A stretch of 51,410 nucleotides of DNA from Candidatus Brockarchaeota archaeon. Its GTDB lineage: Archaea > Thermoproteota > EX4484-205 > JAAOZP01. The stretch's first letter is position 1, and the number at the start of each line of letters is the position of its first letter. A program made the position numbers and the translations under genes. The notes beneath the pieces are model-generated. The model was not told the DNA's origin. It searched no databases and worked only from the letters and a program-made list of their open reading frames with translations. Below, piece by piece: positions 2,609 to 39,604 of this stretch. The stretch spans positions 1 through 51,410 of the forward strand of contig JAFNIQ010000007.1 in NCBI GenBank assembly GCA_017601395.1, written 5' to 3'.

Positions 2609-3188
2609 TTAACGAGGAAATCGTAGATGAAAGAAACGTCCAGCTGAAAGAAAAGCCCAATGTACCGCGATATTCATTCCAAACATCTTCAAGTACCCCA
2701 TTGTCCTCACCCCCCTGAAATTGATTATTGCAAACAGTATGAGGATGATGATCGCCAGCAAGTATGGCTCCAACCATCTCAAGAAATAGTTTATTGATAA
2801 GGCGAAGACTATTGCACCTAAGGCGCAATCCGTTATGCTCCCGATCCAGTCAAACCATCCTGCTAGAAACGTTGGGAAACCCTCGCCGAAAGCTATTTTA
2901 ACGAAACTTATAGCACCTCCGGCGCTGCTTAGCACCGTCGAGCCGAGCTCAGCGTAGGACAAGGTGTCAAAACAGGGTGAAAAGTGGCCCCAATAAGGAA
3001 AGTTAACATGATGCTCGGACCCGCAGCCCCAACTGCTCTCCCATTATGGCGAACATTGTCTCGCAGATGGCTGTGCCCACCCCTAGGAATGTTGTCTGTG
3101 CGAGATTTAAACTCCTTCTTAAAGTGATCTCCTCACGCCCAAAGCCCTCGTCATCAGAGTTCACCCTTGTGCCTTGCACAATACCCAT
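2609..3188 (-). pseudogene. Fragmented, truncated APC-family amino acid permease
   Basis: REEITLRRSLNLAQTTFLGVGTAI (N-term, ORF 3003-3188) continues in another frame as SYAELGSTVLSSAGGAISFVKIAFGEGFPTFLAGWFDWIGSI (ORF 2609-2962); the C-terminal two-thirds is absent. Confidence 0.75.
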
Positions 3189-5268: not shown

Positions 5269-6417
5269 ATGAGGATTCAGAGGATTCTCGCCATAGTTAA
5301 GAAGGAAGCAAAGAAGACTGTGCGCGACCCAGCTGTTCTATTCATGGTATTTCTTTTTCCAGTGGCATTCATGCTTGCTTTCGGCGCCTTCTTCGGCGGG
5401 GGTGGAGGCGAGCAACCCGTGTACGAGGTTGGGGTGGTCAACATGGATAAGGGGGATGCGGCGCAAACCCTGCTCACCATGTTGTCTAAAACCGGGCTGC
5501 TCAGCCCCAGGGTCTACGATGACAATAACACTGCTCAGGCTGACCTATCACAGGGCAAGGTTAAAGCAGTGATCATAATCCCGAGCGATTTCAGCCTAAG
5601 CCTTGCCTCCTATAGGGCGGCGCCTGGAGAACCGGGAAGGTGGTCGAATACAACCATCGCGCTATACTTGGACAAGGGCTCGCTCATCGCGATTCAAGCA
5701 GTGCCGCCCATGTTGCAGCAGGCGTTGGCGGCGGTCGCCGGCCTAGAGAGCCAAGCCCCCTTAAGCCCGTTACGCGTGGAGGTCGCTTCCCTAGTCGAGG
5801 TGAAGACGCTGTCTGTCTTCGAGTTCATGGCTCCAGGTATGTTCACCTTCGCGTCAATATACATTCTAATGATGGTTGCCCAGGCTTTCATCCAGGACCG
5901 TGAGAACGGCATGATGAAGAGAATAAGGACCACGTCGATAACCTCATTTGAGTTCATGATGGGCCAAGTCTTCTCATACATGCTGATAGCCCTCGTCCAA
6001 GCAGCACTGGTGTTCGCCACGGTCTATCTTCTGGGCTTCAGGCCGAACGTGGACTTAGGAACGCATTTGTTCGCGTTCACAATCCTACTGGTTTTCTCCC
6101 TGTCCAACGTTGGGTTCGGCCTGATAGCAGCCACGCTCGCAAAGTCACCCGGTGCGGCTACCGGATTCTCATTCCTGTTCCTGCTCCCACAGCTCTTCTT
6201 GGGGACCTTCGTCGGCATGTCGCTCTCCCAGACGGCTCAAATCGCCTGCAGGTTCGTACCCAGCTACTATGTTACTGATTCTCTAGTCTCGCTCTTCCTA
6301 AGGGGTGCGAGCATTCTAAGCCCAGCAATACTGTTGGACCTGGCAGTCGCATCCATGTTCTCCGTGGCAGTCTTAATTGCAGGCATATTCCTCTACGCGA
6401 AATACTTCAGGATCTAG
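5269..6417 (+). CDS. ABC-2 type transporter permease
   Basis: Immediately follows the ATPase gene; N-terminal TM, large extracytoplasmic domain and C-terminal TM bundle with QDRENGMMKRIRTTSIT. Confidence 0.9.
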   Translation: MRIQRILAIVKKEAKKTVRDPAVLFMVFLFPVAFMLAFGAFFGGGGGEQPVYEVGVVNMDKGDAAQTLLTMLSKTGLLSPRVYDDNNTAQADLSQGKVKAVIIIPSDFSLSLASYRAAPGEPGRWSNTTIALYLDKGSLIAIQAVPPMLQQALAAVAGLESQAPLSPLRVEVASLVEVKTLSVFEFMAPGMFTFASIYILMMVAQAFIQDRENGMMKRIRTTSITSFEFMMGQVFSYMLIALVQAALVFATVYLLGFRPNVDLGTHLFAFTILLVFSLSNVGFGLIAATLAKSPGAATGFSFLFLLPQLFLGTFVGMSLSQTAQIACRFVPSYYVTDSLVSLFLRGASILSPAILLDLAVASMFSVAVLIAGIFLYAKYFRI

Positions 6418-12703: not shown

Positions 12704-14605
12704 ATGGCCAGGAAAGAGAGTTTGCGAGAAAGGCCTTACGATGAGAAGAAGGCTGGTCTCGAGGAGGCTTTAAGCTACATTAAGACGGGGGATCATATTT
12801 TCATAGGCTCAGCCTGCGGGGAGCCGCAGTACCTTGTGCACGGGCTTGTCGAGAAGGCTGAGCACCTGGCTGACAACGAGATTCTCCATGTTCACACGCT
12901 TGGCGTCGCGCCATACGCAAAGCCGATCTACTCGGACAGGTTTCGCCTGAACGCTTTCTTCGTAGGCGTGAATACTAGGGAGGCGGTTGCCGAGGGGAGG
13001 GCGGACTATACTCCTGTTTTTCTCTCCGACCTGCCGAAGCTGATATCAAGGGGAATGGTGCCGATAGACGTAGCGCTGATACAGGTGACGCCGCCGGATG
13101 AGCATGGTTTCTGCAGCCTAGGTGTCTCGGTTGAGATAACTAAGACTGCTGCGGAGAAGGCTAGGCTCGTGATAGCTCAGGTAAACCGTTTCATGCCGCG
13201 CGTCCTAGGGGACAGCTTCATTCATGTTAACGATATAGACGTGATTGTTGAGCATGATGAGCCGATTCTCGAGGCACCGCAGCCACCCAGGGATGTTGTT
13301 TCAGACAGGATAGCGAGATATGTTTCCGAGCTGGTTGAGGACGAGTCGACTCTCCAGATAGGGATAGGAAGCATACCTGACGCGGTGTTAAGCTCCCTTG
13401 AGGATAAGAAGGACCTCGGGATCCATACTGAGCTCCTTACGGAGAGCGTCGTTGACCTTGTGGAAGCAGGAGTCATAACATGCGCTAAGAAGACTCTTCA
13501 CAGGGGGAAGATAATTGCTTCATTCGCAATGGGTACTAGGCGCCTTTACGACTTCATAGACAATAACCCGATGGTGGAGTTCTACGAGTCCAACTACGTT
13601 AACAACCCGCTTGTAATCGCCCAAAACAGGAAGATGGTTGCGATAAACCAGGCTCTGGAAGTCGACCTTACGGGGCAGGTTTGCGCAGACTCGCTTGGAT
13701 ATGTTTTCTACAGTGGCTTAGGGGGCCAAGCGGACTTCGTAAGGGGTGCGAGGCTCTCCGAAGGAGGCAGGGCCATAACCGTCATACCCTCCACGGCTAA
13801 AGAGGGTGCAATCTCAAGGATAAAGTCAGTGCTAAGTGAGGGCGCCGGCGTAGTGCTAACCAGAGGTGACGTTGACTATGTTGTGACGGAGTATGGTGTT
13901 GCACGCCTCACCGGGAAGACAATAAAGGAGAGGGCGCTGGCTCTCATAGGCGTTGCCCACCCGAAGTTTAGAAACCAGCTTCTCGAATGGGCTAAGTCTC
14001 ACAAGTATGTGCCGGAGGAAGTATTGCCCTTCCCAGAGGTGGAGTATCCTGAGGAGTTAAAGCGATACGTTACTTTGGAGGATGGCACTAGGCTGCTCAT
14101 AAGGCCGATAAAGCCTTCAGACGCAACCATGAAGCAACACTTGTTCTACGCGCTCTCTAAAGATAGCGTGATGAAAAGATACTTGGGACCGTTGAAGTCT
14201 CTACCTTGGGACAGGGTTTGGCCGTACGTGATAGTTGACTATCAGAACGAGATGGTTCTAGTGGCCGTGGTGAGCGAAGAAGGTTTTGAAAGCATGGTTG
14301 GCATTGGCAGCTACTCCAGAATACCCGGTACCGAGCTGGCGGAAGTAGCTCTCGTAGTCAGGGACGACTGGCAGGGAAAGGGGATTGGGACAGAGCTCCT
14401 CAAATACCTTATTGAGCTGGCTAAGGCAAGGGGCTTCACTGGTTTAAAGGCTTGGGTTCTGGTTGAAAACACTAGGATGATGCATCTCTTCAGAAAGTGC
14501 GGTTACACTATGAGGTACAGGGTGGAGAACGGGGTCTACGAGGTTCTGATAGACCTAAGGCAGCCTGTTGAGACTCGGGAGACTTCAACCTCTGAAAGCC
14601 TGTAA
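12704..14605 (+). CDS. Acetyl-CoA hydrolase/4-hydroxybutyrate CoA-transferase family fused to a C-terminal GNAT acetyltransferase
   Basis: CoA-transferase: VTPPDEHGFCSLGVSVEIT, GLGGQADFVRGA, TEYGVARLTGKT; GNAT: ELAEVALVVRDDWQGKGIGTELLKYLIELAKARGF. Confidence 0.9.
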   Translation: MARKESLRERPYDEKKAGLEEALSYIKTGDHIFIGSACGEPQYLVHGLVEKAEHLADNEILHVHTLGVAPYAKPIYSDRFRLNAFFVGVNTREAVAEGRADYTPVFLSDLPKLISRGMVPIDVALIQVTPPDEHGFCSLGVSVEITKTAAEKARLVIAQVNRFMPRVLGDSFIHVNDIDVIVEHDEPILEAPQPPRDVVSDRIARYVSELVEDESTLQIGIGSIPDAVLSSLEDKKDLGIHTELLTESVVDLVEAGVITCAKKTLHRGKIIASFAMGTRRLYDFIDNNPMVEFYESNYVNNPLVIAQNRKMVAINQALEVDLTGQVCADSLGYVFYSGLGGQADFVRGARLSEGGRAITVIPSTAKEGAISRIKSVLSEGAGVVLTRGDVDYVVTEYGVARLTGKTIKERALALIGVAHPKFRNQLLEWAKSHKYVPEEVLPFPEVEYPEELKRYVTLEDGTRLLIRPIKPSDATMKQHLFYALSKDSVMKRYLGPLKSLPWDRVWPYVIVDYQNEMVLVAVVSEEGFESMVGIGSYSRIPGTELAEVALVVRDDWQGKGIGTELLKYLIELAKARGFTGLKAWVLVENTRMMHLFRKCGYTMRYRVENGVYEVLIDLRQPVETRETSTSESL

Positions 14606-14955
14606 AAATTTTCATTAAGCTGTTCCCACCGTTTAAACGGTTTTTAAACATGCTTATTCAGGCTGGCTCAAGTTTATCCTCCTGATTCCCTACGGAGGAA
14701 CCATTAATCTCCTGTAGAAAATCCTTCATACAAGTACCGTTTTCCACTCTCTACTAAACCGTTGTCGTCGAAAGCGAATCTCCGTTCGCCATTCAGGCTG
14801 ATCCGTCTGCTTATAACGAAAAAGGTCTTGGGGGATCTGGTCTTGGAGTATTTCATTCCGACGTTGAAAAGCCACCGGATGAGGCTGCTTATAAAAAGTT
14901 CCCTGAGGCCCGATAAATTTCTAATGTCATTAGAAGAAGTTTTTTATCTAGCCTA

Positions 14956-16362
14956 GTGATTTTCCACCAGCTATTGAATACCTGTATGTCAACCGGCCAC
15001 GGGTTTAAACCCGGGACTATTCAAAAAGAAAGAATAAAGCAGCTTAATGAGGCGAGTCTGAGGAATGGGAGCTACGTGCTCTACTGGATGCAGGCCTCCC
15101 CGAGAACCGAGTATAATCATGCTCTCGAATATGCTGTTGAAAAAGCAAATGAATTAAACAGGCCCCTCGTCGCTTTCTTCGGAATTACAGGCAATTTTCC
15201 CGAGGCCAATGAAAGGAGCTACTGGTTTATGCTTGAAGGCCTTCTCGAAACCAAGAAGTCCCTTGAGGAACGTGGAATACAGTTGGTTGTTTGGGGCAAG
15301 TCTCCGGAGAAGGGTATTCTGGAGTTGTCCAGAGGTGCGTCGCTCCTAGTGGGCGACAGGGGATACTTACGGATTCAGAAGAAATGGTACCAGTATGTAG
15401 CTGAAAAAGCACCCTGTCCCTTTATTCAGGTTGAAACCAATGTTGTAGTCCCTGTTGAAACAGCATCTTCTAAAGAAGAGTACTCTGCAAAAACCCTTAG
15501 GCCTAAACTCACAAGGGTTCTCGAAAAATACTTGGCTCCTTTGAGAGAGAGTAGCCTAAGGGTTCATTCTCTGGATCTGGAGTTTGAATCCGTCGAGCTT
15601 GAAAACCCTGAACGCTTGATCGACGAGCTTAATGTCGATAGGACTGTGAAGAGAGTTGAAAGCTTCAGAGGCGGGACTAGCGAGGCTAAGAAGCACCTAA
15701 GGGTTTTCATAAAGCGTAAGCTGGATGACTATCCCGAGCTTAGAAACGACCCTACGTTAGACTTTGTTTCAAACATGAGTCCATACTTGCATTTCGGACA
15801 GATTTCTCCAGTATACATAGCTTTAGAGATTTTGAAAACAGAAAGCCCTGGTAGAGGAGCCTATCTGGAGGAACTCATTGTAAGAAGAGAGTTGAGCATG
15901 AACTTCGTTTTCTACAACGAGAAATACGATTCTTTCAACTGTCTACCCGGATGGGCGAAAAACACTCTTATGGCGCATCGTAAGGACCGGCGGCCCTTCA
16001 AGTATGGCTTGGAGGAGCTTGAGAACGGAGAGACCCATGACCCAGTCTGGAACGCGGCTCAAAAGGAGATGGCTAAAACTGGAAAAATGCACGGATATAT
16101 GCGGATGTATTGGGCTAAGAAGATCATTGAATGGGTTGAAAGTCCTGTGGAAGCCTTCAGGTTAGCGCTATACCTTAACAATAAGTATGAGCTTGACGGC
16201 AGGGATCCGAATAGTTTCGCCGGAGTAGCATGGTGCTTCGGCAAACATGACCGTCCTTGGAAAGAAAGACCTGTTTACGGAAAGGTCAGATATATGAGTG
16301 AAAACGGCTTGAAAAGAAAGTTTGATGTTGGCAAGTATATTCGAAAGCTGCAATGTTACTAG
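14956..16362 (+). CDS. Deoxyribodipyrimidine photolyase, class II
   Basis: GSYVLYWMQASPRTEYNHALEYAVEKAN, YLHFGQISPVYIALEIL, MHGYMRMYWAKKIIEW, LNNKYELDGRDPNSFAGVAWCFGKHDRPW. Confidence 0.93.
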   Translation: MIFHQLLNTCMSTGHGFKPGTIQKERIKQLNEASLRNGSYVLYWMQASPRTEYNHALEYAVEKANELNRPLVAFFGITGNFPEANERSYWFMLEGLLETKKSLEERGIQLVVWGKSPEKGILELSRGASLLVGDRGYLRIQKKWYQYVAEKAPCPFIQVETNVVVPVETASSKEEYSAKTLRPKLTRVLEKYLAPLRESSLRVHSLDLEFESVELENPERLIDELNVDRTVKRVESFRGGTSEAKKHLRVFIKRKLDDYPELRNDPTLDFVSNMSPYLHFGQISPVYIALEILKTESPGRGAYLEELIVRRELSMNFVFYNEKYDSFNCLPGWAKNTLMAHRKDRRPFKYGLEELENGETHDPVWNAAQKEMAKTGKMHGYMRMYWAKKIIEWVESPVEAFRLALYLNNKYELDGRDPNSFAGVAWCFGKHDRPWKERPVYGKVRYMSENGLKRKFDVGKYIRKLQCY

Positions 16363-16400
16363 CAGCAAGATTTTTCACACCTATTTCCAATAACCTTTAT

Positions 16401-17267
16401 TCAAAGACTGGCAGCCATGATGGAACCGATTAGAATCAAAAACATCCAGAGGTTTACTTGCCTTATGGTTTTTAACGCCCTTTCTTTCGAGGGATTCTTC
16501 AAAAGGTAAAATATTGAGACAAGGAAACCTATTTCCGAAGCAATAACGGTTACTAGGGGAAAAGGCTCTGTTTTTTCAAATATTTTTAGAAAAAATAATG
16601 GGCCTAGAAAAACCGTTACAGCGTAGCACGCTGATCCTAGGATTGCGGCAACCAGAGGGCAGTGAACAATTGCGACACTCCTTATTTTCTTCAACCTGTC
16701 TCCCTCCATGTCATGAATGCTTTGAACTATTTCCCTGCCAAGATTAGAAAAGAAGCTAAGTATGAAAAACGAAAAAACAACATAACTTATGGAAGCAGTG
16801 GCTGAAAGAGCTCCGAATACGAAAGGCGTGGAGACGCAGAAGGCAACCATCATGTTCCCTAGAAGGCCGTAAGCCTTACCATATATGCTGTAAACAACCG
16901 ATAGGAAGAATGCGATTGAAAATACTGCAAATGCTTGAATATTCGTCGTTAAAGCGAATGAAAAACCTAGTAAAGCAAATATTAAACTTGAAACAAGCGC
17001 GGATCCTCTTGAAACAATTCCCGATGGAATCGGCCGATCCGGCCTGTTGATCCTGTCAATCTCAAAGTCAAAATAGTCGTTGAACGCAAAAGACGAAGCA
17101 GTAATGAAAAATGAGGCTAAAAACGGAAAAACAGCAAGAGGCAACGATGGTAAACCCTCCAAAGCAACCACTTGGCCCAGAAAGGCAGCTAAACCTATTA
17201 GAAAAGAGCCCAAAGGGCGGGTTAACTTTACGCAACCTAATATTAAAACGGCTTTTGATCTATGCAT
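16401..17267 (-). CDS. UbiA-family prenyltransferase (archaeal geranylgeranylglyceryl-phosphate geranylgeranyltransferase-like)
   Basis: NDYFDFEIDRINRPDRPIPSGIVSR and DMEGDRLKKIRSVAI motifs; multiple TM segments. Confidence 0.9.
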   Translation of the reverse strand: MHRSKAVLILGCVKLTRPLGSFLIGLAAFLGQVVALEGLPSLPLAVFPFLASFFITASSFAFNDYFDFEIDRINRPDRPIPSGIVSRGSALVSSLIFALLGFSFALTTNIQAFAVFSIAFFLSVVYSIYGKAYGLLGNMMVAFCVSTPFVFGALSATASISYVVFSFFILSFFSNLGREIVQSIHDMEGDRLKKIRSVAIVHCPLVAAILGSACYAVTVFLGPLFFLKIFEKTEPFPLVTVIASEIGFLVSIFYLLKNPSKERALKTIRQVNLWMFLILIGSIMAASL

Positions 17268-17368
17268 GCAGTTAGCATTTAAACATTACCCGTTTTTAAG
17301 ATTCTAATCCATCCAACTTTGAAAAGCATTCTTTATTAACCCGAGAAAACCATTTCTCTTGGTTTAGC

Positions 17369-18235
17369 ATGACGGTTAAGCCGATAATTCTGGATACTGA
17401 TATAGGTGACGATATAGATGATGCTTTTGCACTGTTGTTCGCGCTGAAGTGCAGCGAGCTGGAGCTTGAGGCAGTTACTGTCGTCTGGGGCGACGTTGAG
17501 ACGAGGGCCAGGCTGGCCTCCAAGCTCATATCAACACTAGGCTTGAAAACACCCGTGGCCCAAGGCTCCCCCCAGAGCCTCCTTGGGTTTAAACCCGGAT
17601 GGAAGCCCTGTCAAGCAGAGGTTTTAAAGGAGGGTGAGGCTTTTTCAAACATTCTGGAGACGCCGGCTTGGAACATTATTTCTGAGAAAGCCTGTGAAGT
17701 TGATGGGCTTGACCTTGTCAGCATAGGCCCTATGACGAACATTGCTTTAACACTACTCTTTAATCATGGTTTTGAGAAGAGGGTTGGGCTAACCTCGATG
17801 GCAGGGGTCTTCAAGGGTTCCGGCGCTGAATACAATGTTAAATGCGACCCTGAGGCTTTAAGCCTTGTTCTCAAGTCAGGTTTGAACCCTCTTCTAGTCG
17901 GCTTGGATGTCACGATGAAATGCGTAATGCCTATGAGCATGGTTGAGAAATTAAAGTCCAGCGGGAAGCCTGAGCACAGGCTTGTTTCAACAATGCTTGA
18001 CGCTTGGACTGGGAGCACCGGTTTCAGGCAGCCGGTTTTACACGACCCTCTGGCTTTAGCCACGCTGGTGGACTACAGGATTGTTAATGCTGAGAAAACC
18101 AGGGTTGAGGTTGAGCTTAAAGGAGAGTATACTCGCGGCTTCACTGTTATAACCAACGGCGCTCCTAATGCATCCGTGTGTTTGAATGTTGACGTCGACA
18201 GGTTTCTAAGGCTTTTCGAGGAAGTGGTTTTCTAA
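17369..18235 (+). CDS. Inosine/uridine-preferring nucleoside hydrolase family
   Basis: IILDTDIGDDIDDAFALLFAL, VDGLDLVSIGPMTNIA, HDPLALA. Confidence 0.92.
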   Translation: MTVKPIILDTDIGDDIDDAFALLFALKCSELELEAVTVVWGDVETRARLASKLISTLGLKTPVAQGSPQSLLGFKPGWKPCQAEVLKEGEAFSNILETPAWNIISEKACEVDGLDLVSIGPMTNIALTLLFNHGFEKRVGLTSMAGVFKGSGAEYNVKCDPEALSLVLKSGLNPLLVGLDVTMKCVMPMSMVEKLKSSGKPEHRLVSTMLDAWTGSTGFRQPVLHDPLALATLVDYRIVNAEKTRVEVELKGEYTRGFTVITNGAPNASVCLNVDVDRFLRLFEEVVF

Positions 18236-18293
18236 AGTCTTAACATGTTTTCACTGGGAAAACCTTTAAAAAGCAAACGTTCCTACCTGCTTC

Positions 18294-19346
18294 ATGGACG
18301 GGTTAAACTTTCTAAACGGGCCGCTTTCAAACCTGCCTAGGATAGTTCACGCTAAAACCAGAAGGTTCTCCTCCTTCGACAAGACTGGTGGCAACAAGGA
18401 TTACTGGATTATAGGCTCATGTGAAAAAGTGAATATTGCTGAAATCAAGGGCGCGGGAATAATAAGACACATATGGTTCACGGTGAGCTCCCTCAACAAG
18501 CTCTGCCTTAGAGACGCCGTGTTAAGAATGTACTGGGATGGTGAGCAGGATGCTAGCGTTGAAACACCTCTCGGAGACTTTTTTGGGGTCGGTCACGGTG
18601 TTGCAAATCATTTCGTTTCGCTCCCGTTAAGCATGGTGAGGGGACCCGGCAGAGGGGTCAACGCGGGGATGAACTGCTACTTTCCAATGCCGTTCTCAAA
18701 CGGGGCTAGGATAGAGGTTGAGAACGAGAAGGACGACGAGATTATACTTTACTTCCACGTGGACTACGAGCAGGTTGACGAAATACCTGAAGACTACGGC
18801 AGGTTCCACTGCTGGTGGAACAGGGAGAATCCGTGCACCCCGGTTGAACACAGCGGGGAGGGCTTAAACACTACTGGTGAAGACAACTATTTAATACTGT
18901 ACGCGGAGGGCGTAGGCCACTATGTGGGATGCGTTCTCAACGTGGACAATTTCAATGCTTTCCACCAGAAGTACACGTGGTTCGGAGAGGGTGACGACAT
19001 GATTTTCGTAGACGGGGAAAAATGGCCTCCCAGCATCCATGGCACCGGGACTGAGGACTACTTCTTGGCGGCATGGGGCTTCCCATGCGGGGAATACTCG
19101 GGGCCGTATCACGGTGTCTCGCTTGCTGGAGACACTGTAGAGTGGTCTGGAAAATGGAGCGTCTACAGGTTTCACATAGAAGACCCGGTTCGGTTCACGA
19201 AGTCGATCAGGGTGACTATTGAACACGGGCATGCTAACGACCAGGGTAACGATTATTCGAGCGTAGCATACTGGTATCAGTCTGAGCCCCATAAGAAATT
19301 CCCACCCCTGCCGAAGGCGCTGGACAGGAGGCCTAGAAGAGTTTAA
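18294..19346 (+). CDS. DUF2961-family protein
   Basis: IKGAGIIRHIWFTVSS, PLGDFFGVGHG, GTGTEDYFLAAWGFPCGEYSGPYHG are typical of DUF2961. Confidence 0.8.
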   Translation: MDGLNFLNGPLSNLPRIVHAKTRRFSSFDKTGGNKDYWIIGSCEKVNIAEIKGAGIIRHIWFTVSSLNKLCLRDAVLRMYWDGEQDASVETPLGDFFGVGHGVANHFVSLPLSMVRGPGRGVNAGMNCYFPMPFSNGARIEVENEKDDEIILYFHVDYEQVDEIPEDYGRFHCWWNRENPCTPVEHSGEGLNTTGEDNYLILYAEGVGHYVGCVLNVDNFNAFHQKYTWFGEGDDMIFVDGEKWPPSIHGTGTEDYFLAAWGFPCGEYSGPYHGVSLAGDTVEWSGKWSVYRFHIEDPVRFTKSIRVTIEHGHANDQGNDYSSVAYWYQSEPHKKFPPLPKALDRRPRRV

Positions 19347-19567
19347 AGCAAGCCTTAACCAGCATCGTCTGGAAATCTCTTTTTCCACGTTAAGCAAGCT
19401 TTCCACCCAGCATGCTCCTCCCACGCTTTATTATTCTTGTCTCATTACTCTATTGGTTTCAACAGAAGATTTTAACCCTTTGAGCTTTTTCTTGCCGCTG
19501 CCGTAATAACCTCAACTAAAAAGCTTATATTGCAGATGAAACAAATAATCACGATGGGTGTTTTGAA

Positions 19568-19867
19568 GTGTCAAGGCTATATCGATTATCTGGCTTCTCG
19601 GCTTTAATACTTGGTATTCTAGGCGTATTAGAATCGCTCTACCTTTTTGGAATTAAGGCTATTACAACATCCCTTGTTCGAGATGTGATAGGAAACGCTA
19701 TATGGTGTGTAGCTAGCTCGAACATGACGGCTTACGAGGATGTTGAAACTATGAACAAACGGCTCAATGAACTATCTTCACTAGCAGAAAAGCCGCTGCT
19801 ACTACTCTTTAGCCTGATACTGATATCGATATCGGTTATAATGATTAAAAGCCATAGCAAAAAATGA
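19568..19867 (+). CDS. Small hypothetical membrane protein (two predicted TM segments)
   Basis: Hydrophobic N- and C-terminal stretches in a 99-aa ORF. Confidence 0.4.
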   Translation: MSRLYRLSGFSALILGILGVLESLYLFGIKAITTSLVRDVIGNAIWCVASSNMTAYEDVETMNKRLNELSSLAEKPLLLLFSLILISISVIMIKSHSKK

Positions 19868-20130
19868 CAAATGGCACATCCACAGTTTCATATAAATCTC
19901 TAAAAAAGTTCGGGAATAAAATTAGGAGTTGAGACAATCTGCTTAGCCTTAAACCCATGTACACGCCTGTGGTAATTGACTGGCACGCGAAGTGCAACCC
20001 ACTGTTCCTATGTTTAGCGAATAATCGCGGTATCGTGAGATCCTCTGTGAGCCATAGACGTCACCTCTCAACTCCCGGAAACGGATGTTCACCTGGACTT
20101 AAGCTGAAGTAATTTGACCGGCAATGTAAG

Positions 20131-20166
20131 CGGGCCCGCCGCGATTCGAACGCAGAATCTTTGGCT
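20131..20166 (-). repeat. Degenerate 3'-half tRNA-Arg remnant (T-arm plus acceptor 3' strand), putative attachment-site duplicate
   Basis: Minus strand AGCCAAAGATTCTGCGTTCGAATCGCGGCGGGCCCG matches the 3' half of the tRNA at 22957-23049; no 5' half or anticodon loop. Confidence 0.8.
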
Positions 20167-20181
20167 ACCCCTTTAAAGTTT

Positions 20182-20850
20182 CTAAGAAAGAAGTGTTGCT
20201 AGCCTAACATAAACTTTATCCTTATAGGTGCTGATGCTCTCAATCTCCAGCCTTTCGATATCTATAAATAATTTATAACCGACTATGTGTTTTGCAAGCC
20301 CCTCATAGATTAAATTTTTGCTTAAAGAGTGAATAAAATTCTTGACGCGTTGAAAATCAAAATCAACAACATCCGTTATTATCTTATTAGCATAGTCGGA
20401 ATCAAGCTCACATTTCAAGGACATTTCTGGAACTACTATAATTTCCCTTCCTCCTGCCTTAGTTTTTACCCTTGAATCCATACCAAATTTCTCAGTAAGA
20501 ATTTGCCTATTTATTTTATATTCTTCTTCTACGTGCTCCAAATCATCTCGATATGATTCTTTCTCTGAATTCATATGGTCAGAGAGAAGGATTGTAACAA
20601 AGTCCACCTTAACATCACCCTCTAGATTCAAAGCTGCGTTTAACAGGCGTTCAGCTAAATCTCCTACCCTCTTAGGATTACTCGAATAAGCTGTTAAATA
20701 AAAGATAGTCCCCTCATCTCTTTCCCGGCCTGTAATCCCTATGACACATTCTTTTATTGTTTCTCTCCATCTTTTAGAAACATATTTCTCGCTATTTACT
20801 CTAACCGCCTCTAAGTCGTCCCCCCACATCCAGACTGTAGCGTGGCTCAT
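20182..20850 (-). CDS. Cassette ORF3, protein of no recognised family (ORF 20182-20874; ATG at 20850 or TTG at 20874)
   Basis: Directly downstream of the LAGLIDADG gene; C-terminal region conserved in the decayed copy (39428-39604). Confidence 0.65.
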   Translation of the reverse strand: MSHATVWMWGDDLEAVRVNSEKYVSKRWRETIKECVIGITGRERDEGTIFYLTAYSSNPKRVGDLAERLLNAALNLEGDVKVDFVTILLSDHMNSEKESYRDDLEHVEEEYKINRQILTEKFGMDSRVKTKAGGREIIVVPEMSLKCELDSDYANKIITDVVDFDFQRVKNFIHSLSKNLIYEGLAKHIVGYKLFIDIERLEIESISTYKDKVYVRLATLLS

Positions 20851-20874
20851 CTTATCCTCTGATGATCGTTTCAA

Positions 20875-21813
20875 CTAGCCCTCTCTTCCCTCCTCCTTTT
20901 CTTCTTCACTTTTGTATTTTAACCTTATACTTTCCAGTCTTTTTGCACGACCCGGGTGATAAGTACCTATTTCCTCTGCAAACCGAACGTATTCGTCTTC
21001 AGGAATAGAGAAAACATAGTAATTGTGTAGCGGAGGTTCTTTTTTAGAGACGTGAATCGGGTTAGGATGAAACCCTAGGAGTTTGAATGCTTCCCACAGT
21101 TCTTTTATCCCCTCTTCACAAGTTGACGATATTTTAATGGAGAAGCCTTCTTCACTTTTGCTTATATTCCCGTCTCCAGAAAAGAAACCTCTTAAATATG
21201 CTCTCAATCCATCTTTATCAAGATGTTTAAACGGAACGTGGAATTTAAAAGCCTTCGGCTTAATACCTAGGTCCAGAAGATCAAAATACACTCCTCTATC
21301 ATATGTTCTTGCTTCAAAATACTCCCTTCCATCCCTCTTCCTCTTATGGTAAACATGAGGTTCTATACCATAAACTTCCTTAAACAGATCATTATAGCGT
21401 TCAATGAGCTCCCTATGTTTCGAGGTGAAATGAACCTCAAAGTCAGGGTGCTCTCTAGTAGAATAAAGACCGCCGTCTGAAGCTATGAGACCACAGATTT
21501 CAGCTTTCCTAGAAGTCGTTATTTCTCTAAGCCCTTCTTCTGATACTTCTAACAGCGTCCCACGGCACAGTGGAAAAAGGAATCTATCCTCCTCAATTAT
21601 TGCTTTTGAGAATTTGCCGATGAGTTCACCTTTTTTAAGCAGCTCATATTCCTCCCTTTCCGTCTTTCGTATTTCATACTCTCCGAAAACTCTAATAGTT
21701 TTAGCTTCGTATTTTTCACACTTCTCACCATGAATTGTGGGTTCTTTCTCATATACCGATTCTCCTTGGCCAAATCTTCTTTCATATTGCCTTATGGCTG
21801 AGCCTCCGCCCAT
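20875..21813 (-). CDS. LAGLIDADG-type homing endonuclease-like protein
   Basis: Two LAGLIDADG-like motifs, ICGLIASDGGLY and LRAYLRGFFSGDGNI, about 100 aa apart with the expected intervening domain. Confidence 0.88.
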   Translation of the reverse strand: MGGGSAIRQYERRFGQGESVYEKEPTIHGEKCEKYEAKTIRVFGEYEIRKTEREEYELLKKGELIGKFSKAIIEEDRFLFPLCRGTLLEVSEEGLREITTSRKAEICGLIASDGGLYSTREHPDFEVHFTSKHRELIERYNDLFKEVYGIEPHVYHKRKRDGREYFEARTYDRGVYFDLLDLGIKPKAFKFHVPFKHLDKDGLRAYLRGFFSGDGNISKSEEGFSIKISSTCEEGIKELWEAFKLLGFHPNPIHVSKKEPPLHNYYVFSIPEDEYVRFAEEIGTYHPGRAKRLESIRLKYKSEEEKEEGREG

Positions 21814-21819
21814 TGATTC

Positions 21820-22884
21820 TCACTTGCTTAAGTCTAACAAGTTATGGACAATCAGAATCTTCATGCATGCTTCCTTCCCGTCTATCCATAAATCAAGCAA
21901 CTCCTGTGGCATTAACCCATTACAAGCCTTGCAATTACATTCATCAAACCTTATTTCAGGATCATTAAGCGGATATGGAAATCCGTTCTTAAAATAATTT
22001 CCATGCTTAGCTTCTATGAACCAAGAGAGATTACTGTAGCTTATTCCTTTATACTTCTGCTTTCGACCAACACCATAAACGAGTAGTTCAAAATAAATAC
22101 TACTATTCTTCAAGATCTTGAGAGCGTATGGAAGAAAATATCCTAAACCTCCTTCTTCAAAAAGTTCTCTTGCCGGCATTGCGAATGAAACATATCCCAT
22201 TTCAACCTGTTTCTTAATGGCCCAATCCATTTGTAGAAGGTTAGCACCCTTGACCAAGCCTATTACAGGGATGTTTAGCTTAAGAAAATCTTTTGCAAAA
22301 GATACAAGACGTATAGTTTGAGACCAAGATAAGAAAAGGGGGTCATCGGTATATGTGTAGTTATCTGGAATCATAGTAGCATCAGGCCTCAAATCCCTAA
22401 TCAGCCTGAAGTAATCCTCTAGCCTAAGCTTATCGATAAACTCATCCGGCATCACCGTAGATAAAACAATCTTCCCATTAAAACCTAGGAAATCATGAAG
22501 TCCCTTACTTGATGCTTTAGACAACATATTCTCATTTATGAGTAATTGCCAAAGGGGAACAAAGATCATAGGTGTTTGAAGACCTTCCCTCCAAAACCAG
22601 GACCTTCGATCTAAAATATCGATTTCAGGAACAAATTTAGGAAAACCTATCCTGGTTACTTGGTTCCTACTTGCTAAAGGAATGGATATAGGAGGTGGTC
22701 GGCCTTCACCTCCACTAGGACAATAGGGTCTTAACCGGCAGAAAGATTTAGGGTAAGTTAACCCCAAATGATGACTTCCACGAAGGCAACGAGCCACAAG
22801 GCATACGCCAATGATCGTGCAACGAGGACAGGGATTCTTAAAGTAGGGGCAGGACTTACATTCAACTCCACATCCACTTTTCAA
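21820..22884 (-). CDS. tRNA/DNA-guanine transglycosylase-like protein with Cys-rich N-terminus (DpdA-like or TGT-paralogue candidate; TTG start)
   Basis: C-terminal CNCKAC-x25-HN matches the TGT zinc signature C-x-C-x2-C-x25-H; GLHDFLGFNGKIV resembles archaeal TGT GLHEFLGFDGPI; N-terminal C-x3-C-x2-C-x6-C-x2-C-x5-C-x4-C. Confidence 0.75.
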   Translation of the reverse strand: MKSGCGVECKSCPYFKNPCPRCTIIGVCLVARCLRGSHHLGLTYPKSFCRLRPYCPSGGEGRPPPISIPLASRNQVTRIGFPKFVPEIDILDRRSWFWREGLQTPMIFVPLWQLLINENMLSKASSKGLHDFLGFNGKIVLSTVMPDEFIDKLRLEDYFRLIRDLRPDATMIPDNYTYTDDPLFLSWSQTIRLVSFAKDFLKLNIPVIGLVKGANLLQMDWAIKKQVEMGYVSFAMPARELFEEGGLGYFLPYALKILKNSSIYFELLVYGVGRKQKYKGISYSNLSWFIEAKHGNYFKNGFPYPLNDPEIRFDECNCKACNGLMPQELLDLWIDGKEACMKILIVHNLLDLSK

Positions 22885-22896
22885 GCTCCACTCTAA

Positions 22897-22910
22897 TCAC
22901 ATATAAAATG
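22897..22910 (-). promoter_or_regulatory. Putative TATA box for the cassette operon
   Basis: Minus-strand CATTTTATATG about 21 nt upstream of the TTG start at 22884, compatible with a nearly leaderless transcript. Confidence 0.45.
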
Positions 22911-22956
22911 TTTAATAACACTTTCTGACAGCTCGTAACAACGTTTTACGGGGTAG

Positions 22957-23049
22957 CGGGCCCGCCGCGATTCGAACGCGGGATCTTCGGCTCCGGAGGC
23001 CTGCGTGGAATGATCCTCGACGCCTTTATCCTGGCTTGGCCACGGGCCC
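22957..23049 (-). tRNA. tRNA-Arg(CCG) with an apparent 17-nt non-canonical intron in the 5' anticodon stem (23001-23017)
   Basis: Acceptor GGGCCCG/CGGGCCC, T-arm CCGCG-TTCGAAT-CGCGG; removing AGGATCATTCCACGCAG gives stem-loop TCGGC-CTCCGGA-GCCGA and a 76-nt mature tRNA; CCA not encoded. Confidence 0.88.
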
Positions 23050-23100
23050 TGTTAAACTTTATTTACATGGGCTTTTAAACCTAATTCGCCTCAACCAAGC

Positions 23101-24729
23101 ATGGGGAGCAGTAATAAGGGCAGGTTCGTGTTCTGGGCTGATGCGGTGGCCGATTCAGCGATTGCGCATGCTAGGAGAAACAGTATGCCTCTTGTAACCG
23201 TTAAGAGCGGCGGCTCCCCCTCCGGGGGGAAGCACATAGGCAACATGAACGACCAGATACGTGCCTTCTTCATACATGATGCTTTAACCAGGAAGGGTGT
23301 TCGCGCAAGGCTGATCTACACTAACGACGATATGGATCCTCTTAGAACTATTCCGCCTTCCGCGCCCGACGGGGACGGGGAGTGGCATGTTTTCACGGAG
23401 CAGGAGTTAGCGACGCTTGAAAAACACTTAGGCTGGCCGTACAGCCGTATACCGGATGTCTTCGGATGCCACAGGTCTTGGGGGGAGCATTTCAACTCCG
23501 TGATTCAAGACGGGTTGGGCAGAATAGGAATAGTCATGGAGAACTATGATAACAGCGAGTCTTACGCTAGCGGAAGGTTTCTCGAAGCCACTAGGCTGAC
23601 CCTCTCTAAGACGATGCTCGTAAGGGAGGTTTTAAGCAGGTTTCAGAGAAACGTTGAGAAGAACTGGATACCTTTCCACCCTGTCTGCGGCAACTGTGGG
23701 AAAATAACGACGACGGCTCTAAGCTTCGACCTTGGCAGCGAGACTGTTGAGTACGAGTGTAAAGGGAGGGTTCTAGCCGGGAAATACGTGATAAAGGGCT
23801 GTGGACACAGGGGTTTTTCAACGCTTAAAGAGGGTAAGCTTCCCTGGCGTCTAGAATGGGTTGCACAGTGGATGGTTTTCCAGGTTAACGCGGAGCCCTT
23901 CGGAAAGGATCATTACGAGGGCTCCTGGAAGTCTGGTCAAGCATTGGCTAGGGAAGTCTACGGGATAGAGCCGCCGGCAAGCCTCGTCTACGAGTTCTTC
24001 CTTGTTAACGGCGAGAAAATGTCGAGCAGAAAGGGTAACGCGTACATACTTCACGACCTGCTGAAGGTTCTTGAGCCCGAGGTGATAAAGTACCTCTACA
24101 CTAAGAGGCCGATGATGCAGAGGAATATCGACTTGAAGAATCTACACCTCCTAGTTGAGGAGTTCGACAGGTTTGAGGAGAGCTTTTTCAAAGGGGACTC
24201 AGAGGAGGCTGCGAGAATATATCCTGCGATAGTCGGGAAAGTCCCTGCGAAAAAGCCGTTGAGAGTGAGCTACCTGCTTGCAAGCTACGTCGTCCAGTTC
24301 TACCCGGTTGAGGAGGCTTACAGAAGCCTGGTTAGGGCAGGCGTCGTAAAAGAGGAGGCTTGTGAAGAAGACAGGGAGAGGGTGCTCCGGAGACTTTGGC
24401 TCGCTGGAAACTGGCTTTCGGCTTTCGCGGATGCCAGCAAGTACGTTTTAAAGAGGGAGCCCGTGGAAGTGGATTTAAGCGGCTTCAAACATGCCTTAAA
24501 GGAGCTCGTGGAAGAGTTGTCGTCGCTGAAAGAGTTTAACGGCGAGGAAATACAGAACATTATTTACTCCACTGCCCGTAGGCATGGCATCCCCTCGTCA
24601 AGCTTCTTCGAGAAGCTTTACATGGTTTTCACCGGAAGAGGAAGTGGCCCAAGGCTCGGCTACCTGCTTGCGACACTGGGCAGGGAACATGTAGTAACCC
24701 GGCTTAACACTCTTCTCCAAAAACCTTAG
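23101..24729 (+). CDS. lysS: Lysyl-tRNA synthetase, class I
   Basis: Class I signatures SGGSPSGGKHIGN and KMSSRKGN; VFWADAVAD N-terminus. Confidence 0.95.
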   Translation: MGSSNKGRFVFWADAVADSAIAHARRNSMPLVTVKSGGSPSGGKHIGNMNDQIRAFFIHDALTRKGVRARLIYTNDDMDPLRTIPPSAPDGDGEWHVFTEQELATLEKHLGWPYSRIPDVFGCHRSWGEHFNSVIQDGLGRIGIVMENYDNSESYASGRFLEATRLTLSKTMLVREVLSRFQRNVEKNWIPFHPVCGNCGKITTTALSFDLGSETVEYECKGRVLAGKYVIKGCGHRGFSTLKEGKLPWRLEWVAQWMVFQVNAEPFGKDHYEGSWKSGQALAREVYGIEPPASLVYEFFLVNGEKMSSRKGNAYILHDLLKVLEPEVIKYLYTKRPMMQRNIDLKNLHLLVEEFDRFEESFFKGDSEEAARIYPAIVGKVPAKKPLRVSYLLASYVVQFYPVEEAYRSLVRAGVVKEEACEEDRERVLRRLWLAGNWLSAFADASKYVLKREPVEVDLSGFKHALKELVEELSSLKEFNGEEIQNIIYSTARRHGIPSSSFFEKLYMVFTGRGSGPRLGYLLATLGREHVVTRLNTLLQKP

Positions 24730-24888
24730 TCGATGCAGCTTCCTCATTTTTCTATGTTCCGGTTGATGTTAACCTGCGAACACGTTTTACGGTTGAAAAT
24801 CAGTCGACTTTAGACGGATGTTTTCTGAACATCTAATTGTAAGGTTAAATACCGGTTTCCTGAAGAGGTGCAAACATTGGATTCAAGC

Positions 24889-25938
24889 ATGAGGGTTGGG
24901 ATAGTTGGCTACGGAGCATACGTGCCTAGGCTGAGAATCAGGGTTGAAGAGATAGCGAGAGTCTGGGGGCATGACGCCAACTCCTACAGGGAGGGGCTTG
25001 GAATAGAGGAGAAGTCTGTTCCGTCGCTAGACGAGGATACTGCCACGATAGCCGTTGAGGCTGCGAGAAACGCCATGAGGCGGGCGCTTGAGGTTAAGCC
25101 GAGCGAGGTCGGCGCCCTGTTCGTGGGCTCAGAATCCCACCCGTATGTTGTTAAGCCGACGGCAGCAACCGTCGCAGAAGCCCTGGGCTTAACGCCAAGC
25201 CTAACCGCGGCAGACACAGAGTTCGCCTGCAAGGCTGCGACAACAGCAATCCAAGCATGCTTAGGGATGGTTAAGGCAGGATACATAAGGTACGGTATCT
25301 CGATAGGGGCTGACACAGCTCAGGGAGCACCTAGGGACGCGCTCGAGTATACTGCTGCCGCAGGCGGAGCCGCTTACGTAATAGGCGCGGGAGAAGGTGT
25401 GATCGCCGAGGTTGAGGCAACATATTCCTACACGCAGGATGTCCCTGACTTCTGGAGGAGGGATGGCGCCAGCTACCCTAGGCACGCTGGAAGATTCACA
25501 GGCGAGCCCGCGTACTTCGAGCACGTTATAAACTGCACGAGAGGCCTGCTGGAGAAAACTGGGACAACACCTCGGGATTACGATTACGTAGTGTTCCACC
25601 AGCCTAACTCGAAGTTCCCGTTGAAAGCCGCCAGGGAGCTCGGCTTCGAGGATAAGAAGCTCCATCCTGGTCTCCTGGTCAACCGTCTCGGAAACACTTA
25701 CTCAGGCTCCTCTCTACTCGGCCTGGCGGCAGTACTGGATGTTGCAAGCCCCGGGGAAAGGATTCTGCTAACCTCCTACGGTTCTGGAGCCGGGTCAGAC
25801 TCCTTCAGCATAAGGGTGACGGAAGCCATAGACTATAAGAGGAAGCTGGCCCCGCCTGTGATATACTACCTGGATAAGCGTGAATACATAGATTACTCAA
25901 CCTATGCGAGGTACAGGAGGCTTTTCAAAGAGAGGTGA
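24889..25938 (+). CDS. Archaeal hydroxymethylglutaryl-CoA synthase
   Basis: [65 protein letters not shown]. Confidence 0.92.
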
Positions 25939-25945
25939 CCATGGT

Positions 25946-27112
25946 TTGAAGAGAGAGGTTGCAATAGTGGCTGTTGGCGCAACAAGGTTCGGGGAACACT
26001 GGAGCAAGGGTCTTAAGGACTTGGCGTGGGAAGCCGGGGTTCAGGCTGTTGAAGAAGCAGGCATAAGCGGAAAAGATATTCAGTACATTGTCTTCGGAAA
26101 CATGTCTGGAGGAATGTTCGAAGGACAGGAGCATGTTGGAGCCCTTGTGGCGGAGTTCCTAGGGTTGAACCCTGTGCCAGCTACAAGGGTTGAGGCTGCA
26201 TGCGCCTCCGGCGGGGTGGCTTTCTTCCAAGGCTACTTGGCTGTAGCGTCAGGCATGTATGACCTTGTGGCTGTCGGCGGGGTTGAGAAGATGACTGACG
26301 TTGAACCAGGACAGGCTACGGAGATTCTTTCAGCAGCAATGGACTATGAGTGGGAAGCATACTTCGGCGCCACTTTCCCAGGTGTTTACGCACTGATGGC
26401 AACCAGGTATATGCATGATTACGGCCTTAAGCCGGAGACGCTTGCCAAAGTCGCTGTTAAAAACCATTACCATGGAAGCATGAACCCGCTTGCTCACTTC
26501 AGGAACAGGATAACCGTGGAGGACGTGCTCTCCTCCCCCATCGTAGCCCATCCGTTGAGGAGGAACGACTGCTGCCCTGTTTCAGACGGTGCTGCCTGCG
26601 TGCTGCTCGCACCGCTGGATGAGGCGTATAAATACACGGACACGCCGATAATCGTTAAGGGTGTGGCGCAAGCATCAGACACGCTCAGCCTCCTTGAAAG
26701 GAGGGACATATGCACCCTGAACGCGACGGTGCAAGCTGCGGAGAAGGCTTTCGCGATGGCTAAGCTCGCCAGGAGGGATGTTGACTTGGTTGAGGTGCAT
26801 GACTGCTTCACGATAGCGGAGATACTGGCTCTAGAGGACCTTGGCTTCTGCGCCAAGGGGGAGGCGTTCAAGCTTTACGAGGAGGGGGAGACCTATGTTG
26901 GAGGCAGGTTGCCGGTGAACACCGACGGGGGGCTGAAGGCAGGCGGACACGCGGTCGGCGCAACCGGAGTAAAACAGATAGTTGAGGTCGTTAAGCAGCT
27001 GAGGGGAGAGGCGGAGGGCGGTAGGCAGGTCGACGGGGCTGAGATCGGCTTAGCGCACAACGTAGGCGGGTCGGGCGCCACTGCTGTCGTAACCATACTT
27101 TCAAGGAGGTGA
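25946..27112 (+). CDS. Acetyl-CoA C-acetyltransferase (thiolase); TTG start likely
   Basis: [52 protein letters not shown]. Confidence 0.92.
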
Positions 27113-37408: not shown

Positions 37409-37486
37409 GCCTGTCACAGAATTACAGTTCATCTTTTAAAGCAAGACGAGCTTATTTCAGAAGGAATATGATGAAGAGGAGGGCAC

Positions 37487-38540
37487 CGTGCGGCTCGACT
37501 GTAAAAACTGTTTCTACTTCGCCAAGATCTTTGTCATGGTTGCTCAGCCGGTTGTCTCGCACTTTCATGTAAAAGAGGCATATGTTATAGTGGAATAACT
37601 TCTCCAAGGATCTTCTGTAGGCTTAAGACTTACTGCCCGTTTAGAACCAAGGACAGGACTCCAGTTCAGCTTCCCGCATCTGGATAGAAAACCCATGACT
37701 ATGGTTTGCTTTCAAAAGTTTGTTTCGAGAATTGACATGACCGATCCCAGATCTTGGTTCTGGAAGCACGGTATTGAATTCCCAGCGATTTTCGTTTCTT
37801 TGGGAGAAATTCTACTTAACAAAAAAAGTATTGAATGAGGCTCTAAAGGGGTTACACGATTACTTGGGATTCAATGGAAGAATCTTTCTATCCTTGGTTA
37901 TGCCCGACGAACTCATCGATAAGCTATCCACCAAGGATTACCTTAAGCTAATTGGAGATCTTAGGCCCGATGCTACCATGATCCCGGATAAATTATACTT
38001 ACAGTGACGACCCCTTGTTCTATCTTGGTCGCAAACGACTTCCTTAAACTGGATACACCTCTAACAGGTTTGGTTAAGGGTGCTAATGCTCTGCAAATAG
38101 ATTTTGTTTTAGGAAGCAGATAGAGATGGGTTATGTTTCATTTGCCATACCCGCGAGGGAGCTTTTTAGAGAAGGTCAATTAAGCCCCTCTTTTCCAAAC
38201 AATCCCGTTGAAAACGCCCTATGGAGTCTAAAGAAGACTTAGGACCAATTTTGAGCTAACCATATATGGAGTTGGTGGGAAGCTGAAATATGAACAGTTA
38301 AGTTAAACTAATCTTTCATGGTTCCTAGACGCAAAGCACTGACTCTACTTTAGAAACGGGATACCATTCATGCTTAACGATCCAGAGGTTAGGTTTGAAG
38401 AATGCGATCGTGAAGTCTGTAAGGGAATGAGCCTTAGGAGATTATTGATCTTATGCTCAACGATAAGGAAGCAGGTTTTAGGATACTATTCCTCCACAAC
38501 CTGTTAGATATGCAGAGGGCCTTCCAAAAGAGGGGTTGAA
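37487..38540 (+). pseudogene. TGT-like protein remnant
   Basis: DCKNCFYF, DPRSWFWKHGIEFPAIFVSL, GLHDYLGFNGRIFLSLVMPDELIDKLSTKDYLKLIGDLRPDATMIPD, DFLKLDTPLTGLVKGAN, EMGYVSFAIPARELF, KEAGFRILFLHNLLDMQ spread over several frames. Confidence 0.85.
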
Positions 38541-38549
38541 AAGAAGGTA

Positions 38550-39436
38550 ATGGGTGGTGGAACTAGAGTAGGACAATGGAAAGAGAGGTTTTTCGAGAGT
38601 GAGATAGAGTTGAGGGAGCATTTAAAGAGGGAGCCTAAATCTGCAGAGAATATGGAAATGAGGTCTCCCACGTTATTGCAAGCTTTGGAGAATATGAAGT
38701 ACGTGGAACAGAGGAAGGATATGAGTTGCTCAAAGGAGAAGAAGTTATAGGAATTTAAGAATCCATAACTCAGGGTGATAAGATCCTCTTTGAGTTAAGC
38801 CATGCAGCATATCTAGAGGCATCCGAGAGAGATACTAGGGAAATACTTGCTCCTGAAAAAAAGCGGAGCTGTGTGGCTTAATAGCATCGGATGGTGGTCT
38901 CTATATGAGTGAAAAGTACCACCATCACCGTATATATCTCACCTCAGCAGATGGAGAAGTGGCTAAGCATTATGAAGAACTATTTGAGAAAACTTATCAT
39001 AAGAGACCACATAGATATAAATATGAACCGTCGTCATTCCCTCATTACTCTGAAGAAGTAGAGGATAGGGGGCATATTTTTGACCTGTGGGACCTTGGAA
39101 TTAAAGGATCACCTTATGAGTTCCATGCGCCAAAAGAACACTTGGACCTAAAGGGCGCGAGGACTTATCTTAGGGGCTTTTTCACTGGAGATGATGGTGT
39201 TGCTATGTGGTATGAGAAGCCCCAGGATAGGATACGTTTCTTCATACGCTTTAACTCCAAGTATGGAGAGGGATTAGAGGAGATAAGAAGTCTACTTATA
39301 GATTTGGACTTTCATCTCTTGAAATTCACGAGTATCATAGGGAGGATGGAACCTATTACTTTTTTGGAATCCGTGAAGAAGAACACTTAAAATTCATAGA
39401 GGCGATTTACGACCTTGGCTTCGGGCCTTGAAGGAT
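38550..39436 (+). pseudogene. LAGLIDADG homing endonuclease remnant with frameshifts
   Basis: MGGGTRVGQWKERF start; CGLIASDGGLY near 38872; HLDLKGARTYLRGFFTGDDGVAM; end continues in another frame as DGTYYFFGIREEEHLKFIEAIYDLGFGP-stop. Confidence 0.85.
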
Positions 39437-39604
39437 TTCGTCAAATCTTTGGGTTGTGAAATTATAAAGAGAGGTATTGCTGAAGAAGTAGCTGGTTACG
39501 AGTTGCGGGGAAGTGTTGAGGAGCTTAAAATCAATGATGTTGACGTGGGATACGATGGGGTTTACGTGTACTTGGGGTTGAATCAAGCTAAGTGTTCATT
39601 CTAA
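39428..39604 (+). pseudogene. ORF3 C-terminal remnant (59 codons)
   Basis: LKDFVKSLGCEIIKRGIAEEVAGYELRGSVEELKINDVDVGYDGVYVYLGLNQ aligns with VKNFIHSLSKNLIYEGLAKHIVGYKLFIDIERLEIESISTYKDKVYVRLATLL of ORF3. Confidence 0.75.

Follow-up and report, generated by a model that had tools for sequence, protein, structure and literature searches.

A mobile element family with a homing endonuclease and no recognizable integrase behind tRNA genes of Candidatus Brockarchaeota

The window analyzed here is a stretch of 51,410 nucleotides of contig JAFNIQ010000007.1 from a Candidatus Brockarchaeota archaeon (GCA_017601395.1, hereafter G000; an assembly of 2.14 Mb in 156 contigs, ~91% complete). It contains a tRNA-Arg(CCG) gene on the minus strand (22956–23049), which was predicted with ARAGORN and which we regard as the functional gene, rebuilt beside the element described below. 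Intron prediction and comparison with relatives revealed a 17-nt non-canonical intron on the same strand (23002–23018), and splicing it out results in a 77-nt cloverleaf that folds as tRNA-Arg(CCG). This intron is absent in the related genomes G003, G004, and G007, and related introns are found in G005 and G006. A repeat search showed that the 3′ part of the gene (22955–22992, minus strand) recurs at positions 20129–20166, likewise on the minus strand, as a direct repeat of 38 nt with 92% identity and a core of 25 exactly matching nucleotides. Of the 38 positions of the distal copy, 35 match the tRNA 3′ part, 25 of them consecutively, in agreement with the 25 identical nucleotides and 10 matches among the next 13 counted in a preliminary description of this DNA. 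The next-best match on either strand of the window reaches at most 22 of 38 positions, and no third copy of the 24-mer with up to three mismatches was found in the whole 2.14-Mb assembly, only these two places. The remnant comprises the 3′ side of the anticodon stem, the variable loop, the T-arm, and the acceptor 3′ strand and has no 5′ half, the same extent as described before. Its T-stem (CTGCG/CGCGG), already noted as weakened, carries one mismatch; since the same remnant in G003 still pairs perfectly (CCGCG/CGCGG), the mismatch is most simply explained by decay. Rfam at the gathering threshold gave no match, the intron-bearing tRNA being among the misses.

Between the two repeats, the element carries three genes on the minus strand, encoding P0001 (21820–22884), P0002 (20875–21813), and P0003 (20182–20874). 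The preliminary description had recognized no integrase in this interval, and our profile and structure searches of all three proteins found no integrase match either. Pairwise dN/dS values among related copies of the element genes are mostly 0.1–0.4.

P0001 was assigned by profile, structure, and alignment as a protein of the TGT fold with a Cys-rich N-terminus and the TGT zinc motif. Its model matches 1iq8 with an E value of 3e-11 (Foldseek), its sequence matches ArcTGT by profile (2.8e-6) and TGT in PADLOC (2.8e-4), and the Pfam TGT family matches 17 of 18 P0001 copies at E values of up to 1 (best 2.3e-5). The zinc site CxCxxC...H is intact, with C316, C318, C321, and H347 invariant. P0001 thus shares the fold and the zinc motif of TGT/DpdA transglycosylases; however, alignments including host arcTGTs place Ser142 and Ser284 at both catalytic Asp positions, which in PhoTGT are D95 and D249. 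Because both catalytic aspartates are replaced, an assignment of P0001 as DpdA was rejected. At the sensitivity used, no match to P0001 was found in IMG/VR or in plasmids. Given the absent catalytic aspartates, P0001 points to a role of the TGT fold beyond base exchange, and our guess is that it perhaps binds tRNA or tRNA genes.

Motif alignment and a structure match identify P0002 as an I-DmoI-like LAGLIDADG homing endonuclease with two motifs, whose Asp113 and Asp214 are invariant across 14 copies. I-DmoI is its best solved relative (7e-9). P0002 shares the two acidic motifs with I-DmoI and other archaeal LAGLIDADG endonucleases, but it is a separate open reading frame between P0001 and P0003, outside any intron or intein, and differs by ~95 additional N-terminal residues that begin with a conserved MGGG. 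No match to P0002 was found in phage records at the sensitivity used. P0003 is a conserved protein of 230 amino acids, for which a confident model was obtained (pLDDT 92) and for which neither a significant fold match in the PDB nor a Pfam family was found. Weak matches to AAV Rep/HUH proteins (E > 0.3) were dropped, as no conserved HUH motif is present. We surmise that P0003 perhaps contributes to target specificity.

Comparison of the lysS/tRNA-Arg locus among relatives shows that the duplicated tRNA tail at 20129–20166 is one boundary of a 2.8-kb mobile element, the body of which (20167–22955) is present in G003 and absent from G004–G007. In G005, whose lysS product is 97% identical to that of the window (94% for G003), the site is empty: window positions 14000–19417 and 22950–26000 align with ~25 bp between the two blocks. 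In G004, G006, G007, and G001 the tRNA-Arg gene is likewise present and the element genes are absent, with a single tRNA 3′ end in G004–G007. The cassette-free genomes G004–G007 and G001 accordingly hold the tRNA copy only, the remnant being present together with the cassette in G003, so that the earlier proposal that the duplication defines an element boundary is confirmed by the relatives. The order in G003 is native flank, remnant, element, and tRNA, and in G005 the native flank is joined directly to the tRNA. As the alignment of G003 to the window begins at 20129, with the G003 native flank 34 bp away, the element extends from 20129/20167 to 22955. The flank behind the G003 remnant (TGCCTACAGGTTTGACAT) matches that behind the empty G005 tRNA (TGCCCCAGGTTTGACGC), showing that the remnant is the native tRNA-Arg 3′ end in a displaced position. 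The window additionally holds a 711-bp insertion (19418–20128) that separates the displaced tRNA end from the native flank. It is absent from G003 and G005, lies outside the element as delimited in G003, contains an open reading frame of 99 amino acids (19568–19867), and showed no similarity to the other loci compared.

At several loci the tRNA gene beside the element differs from the displaced 3′ end. In G003, the T-arm of tRNA-Arg (CTGGG/CCCAG) differs from that of its remnant; because both are fully paired, they represent two alleles rather than decay, and the 3′ half has been exchanged. No such exchange is visible in the window, since its tRNA and remnant share the same T-arm allele. The tRNA-Ala(CGC) gene of G005 equals its sister gene for 15 nt, then diverges, and has lost the intron. 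At a tRNA-Leu site of G000, the remnant retains the D-loop intron of the sister allele and the rebuilt tRNA is without it. Intron content and T-arm alleles of the orthologous tRNA-Arg, tRNA-Ala, and tRNA-Leu genes vary strongly among G000 and G003–G007.

The element belongs to a family, with ~30 other copies or remnants in Brockarchaeota genomes, nearly all of them abutting a tRNA 3′ end and a few located behind protein-coding genes. About 33 insertions, intact or partial, end ~5–250 bp from a tRNA gene in G000, G002–G005, G007, and G011, a count made by inspecting the loci, with intron-bearing tRNAs recognized partly by a simple T-arm finder. All named relatives carrying the element are Candidatus Brockarchaeota or metagenome-assembled genomes labelled Thaumarchaeota archaeon or uncultured archaeon within the genus of the window; G000 contains five copies of P0001, and individual relatives have up to five. 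Copies occur in both orientations, and all tRNA-adjoining insertions face the 3′ end of the tRNA. The targets are tRNA-Arg, tRNA-Ala (GGC, CGC), tRNA-Thr, tRNA-Leu, tRNA-Glu (CTC, TTC), and tRNA-Met. Direct repeats of the tRNA 3′ part were observed for Ala-CGC (52 nt), Leu (48 nt), and Met in G007 (53 of 53 nt identical), and shorter ones for Glu-TTC (27 nt), Ala-GGC in G003 (24 nt), and Leu in G002 (21 nt). Several tRNA-flanked copies show no detectable distal repeat; these have either decayed or never had one. Some apparently empty sites hold scraps of the element beside the tRNA (e.g. Ala-GGC in G005), some of those in 3′ flanks having been judged by eye, and this suggests repeated invasion and decay. 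At loci L074 and L148, element-end sequence lies inside the distal repeat, which complicates a simple reading as att repeats and which we read as candidate earlier insertions at the same site. L148, where the copy follows a HAM1-like gene, also contains an exact repeat of 33 nt (3103–3135 and 5756–5788): the beginning of P0001 is found a second time beyond P0003.

The family is also found at protein-coding genes, which are named here (methyltransferase-like, LysX-like, HAM1/RdgB-like, and zinc-ribbon-like) from readings of their sequences. In G000, G003, and G005, a methyltransferase-like gene that neighbors tRNA-Gly carries an element at its 3′ end; in G004 the site is empty. Here the 53-nt repeat consists of the 3′ terminus of the methyltransferase-like gene itself, and the displaced copy runs directly into the native flank and tRNA-Gly. 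We had considered these copies as Gly-type elements located 5′ of tRNA-Gly, an assignment that was rejected, the target being the 3′ end of the neighboring methyltransferase-like gene. The copies lie in L066 (6645–9610), L075 (7100–10290), and L069; in them P0002 takes its final codons from the displaced 3′ end, which is read there in a different frame, and the repeat copies are nearly identical within a genome and differ between genomes, as if recombining. The window itself contains a second, decayed (frameshifted) three-gene copy on the plus strand (37480–39600), which lies between the 3′ end of a LysX-like gene and an ArgC/LysY-like gene; at this position the copy in G005 is better preserved, and G004 retains a remnant. 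Further copies are found behind a HAM1/RdgB-like gene in G005, where both flanks are common to G004 and G006 and a related copy in G010 shares one flank, and at the 3′ end of a gene for a small zinc-ribbon-like protein in G003. Rfam returned no match for the copies without a tRNA neighbor. Because some lineages sit behind protein genes, the architecture of the element is tied to gene 3′ ends and not to tRNA as such.

To what extent the target is inherited with the element can be seen from the gene trees, in an analysis that omitted the methyltransferase-site lineage. The P0002 tree requires five changes of target isotype, the minimum for six states (mean of 9.5 after shuffling; 0 of 1000 shuffles), and the P0003 tree requires six (mean 12.7; 0 of 1000). 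The fit is weaker for P0001, with seven changes (mean 9.4; 15 of 1000). The host genome showed no such fit or clustering. Two Leu elements located at different tRNA-Leu genes (L065 and L076, in G000 and G005) are mostly 96–100% identical over ~1.8 kb; identity is ~96–100% in P0003 and most of P0002, with one 100-column block at 92%, and ~75% in P0001. The two are thus mosaics whose breakpoint lies near the junction of P0002 and P0001. Judging from these trees and alignments, we read P0002 and P0003 as the probable carriers of target specificity and P0001 as a shared, exchangeable core. Between G000 and G003, the dS of the Arg element (0.15–0.24) is lower than that of lysS (0.40), which is consistent with horizontal transfer.

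Precise insertion, displacement together with the native flank, spread in multiple copies to tRNA genes, swaps of 3′ alleles at some sites, and lineages of P0002 and P0003 specific to their targets are all shown by these comparisons. We consider it reasonably probable that the remnant represents the original tRNA-Arg 3′ end, pushed aside by the insertion, and that the element is driven by its homing endonuclease and carries a replacement tRNA 3′ end. For such a process, we infer cutting by P0002, homologous repair, and protection from renewed cutting by the new 3′ allele or an intron. The LAGLIDADG endonuclease would cut an uninvaded tRNA gene, and repair of the break would copy the element from a donor whose homology arms are the 5′ part of the tRNA on one side and the displaced 3′ end on the other. 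The product would contain, in this order, a rebuilt tRNA composed of recipient 5′ and donor 3′ parts, the element, and the 3′ end of the recipient, still attached to its native flank, and the new 3′ allele or intron would resist renewed cutting. Endonuclease cutting followed by repair from a donor is the best reading of the displacement, the native flank, the hybrid 3′ ends, the concomitant loss of introns, and the lineage-specific targets. Homing accounts for spread between alleles of one gene; a jump to another tRNA gene requires relaxed specificity or an extra step. An extended version, which we regard as a tentative possibility, sees in the family a categorically new kind of tRNA-targeting mobile element that unites the pseudo-TGT, as a tRNA-binding fold stripped of its chemistry, the homing endonuclease, and the protein of new fold in one recombination machine, with the spread of introns through host tRNA genes being partly an arms race with the element, since the cutting site would be lost once a tRNA gene acquired an intron or an altered T-arm.

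It is unlikely, in our estimation, that P0003, the pseudo-TGT P0001, or both constitute a new site-specific recombinase acting via a circle, with the endonuclease as an accessory. Such a role would be in line with the confident P0003 model lacking a solved counterpart, with the inheritance of P0003 together with the target, like that of P0002, and with its position as the tRNA-adjoining gene in many copies. In addition, contig L065 ends within its own 48-nt repeat, as a circle or a tandem array could cause, but a contig end is weak evidence, no recognizable recombinase residues are present, and endonuclease-driven repair gives the same anatomy by known chemistry.

Instead, the element could be integrated and excised in trans by a tyrosine recombinase (SSV/pNOB8-type or Xer) whose gene lies elsewhere, the tRNA 3′ repeats then being ordinary att sites. 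The repeats of 21–53 nt do resemble attL/attR, and PF00589 genes are present in G000 (two), G003 (one), G004 (one), and G005 (five). However, none was detected in G007 (92% complete), which nevertheless holds the copy with the perfect repeat at tRNA-Met. The target isotype tracks the P0002 and P0003 encoded by the element itself, six isotypes plus the 3′ ends of protein genes are too many targets for one integrase, and the elements encode an endonuclease instead. We therefore hold a recombinase acting in trans to be quite improbable, and the mechanism implied by the preliminary description, site-specific integration by an SSV/pNOB8-type integrase, perhaps in trans, found no support. Finally, tRNA fragments do occur in prokaryotic genomes, but a local duplication or decay of the tRNA gene unrelated to the three genes is hardly credible, as the presence or absence of the remnant tracks the cassette precisely in relatives and the pattern recurs at many tRNA genes.

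In bacteria and archaea, integrases classically target the 3′ ends of tRNA genes. The Brockarchaeota family resembles archaeal elements of the SSV/pNOB8 type in having a tRNA target and a directly repeated copy of the tRNA 3′ end on each side of the insert, but encodes no integrase, measures only ~2.8 kb, and is also found behind protein genes. The anatomy expected of endonuclease homing, as favored above, has a documented precedent in the mobile endonuclease open reading frames of fungal mitochondria (Allomyces atp6; Glomus atp6, cox2, nad3, and atp9), which replace gene 3′ ends (PMC3630166). Both have a free-standing, non-intronic endonuclease (LAGLIDADG or GIY-YIG in fungi) in the 3′ part of a gene, and in both a replacement 3′ end is brought in and the native 3′ end is displaced past the element. 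In contrast to the fungal cases, the present family resides in an archaeal chromosome, targets mostly tRNA genes of many isotypes, and consists of three co-inherited genes including the pseudo-TGT and a protein of unmatched fold. In Caldiarchaeum, an insertion at tRNA-Thr involves a predicted recombinase and a fragment from the 5′ part of a tRNA (PMC3293823). There, as here, intron-bearing and intron-free tRNA alleles are linked to the insertion of an element; the Brockarchaeota family differs in involving 3′ ends, a homing endonuclease, and many tRNA genes. Archaeal tRNA introns have been proposed to protect tRNA genes from mobile elements (Randau and Soll, cited in PMC3293823). We rate the family as a putative endonuclease-borne mobile element replacing gene 3′ ends, and its link to tRNA introns would follow this earlier proposal, for which the element is a concrete candidate agent that makes it testable. 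A search of open-licence PubMed Central found no published account of the element or of one combining a TGT with a homing endonuclease; as far as searched, an integrase-less family behind tRNA genes of Brockarchaeota was previously unreported. This recurrent family reaches tRNA 3′ ends without an integrase, apparently through homing driven by an endonuclease, and exchanges portions of essential tRNA genes in the process.

A second TGT-like family of ~640 amino acids, also without the catalytic aspartates, is encoded in L175 (1180–3087), L176 (1592–3523), and L089 (5423–7387). The two proteins of this family that were scanned show a weak C-terminal match to calcineurin-like phosphoesterases, and fragments of the family recur upstream of several tRNA genes.
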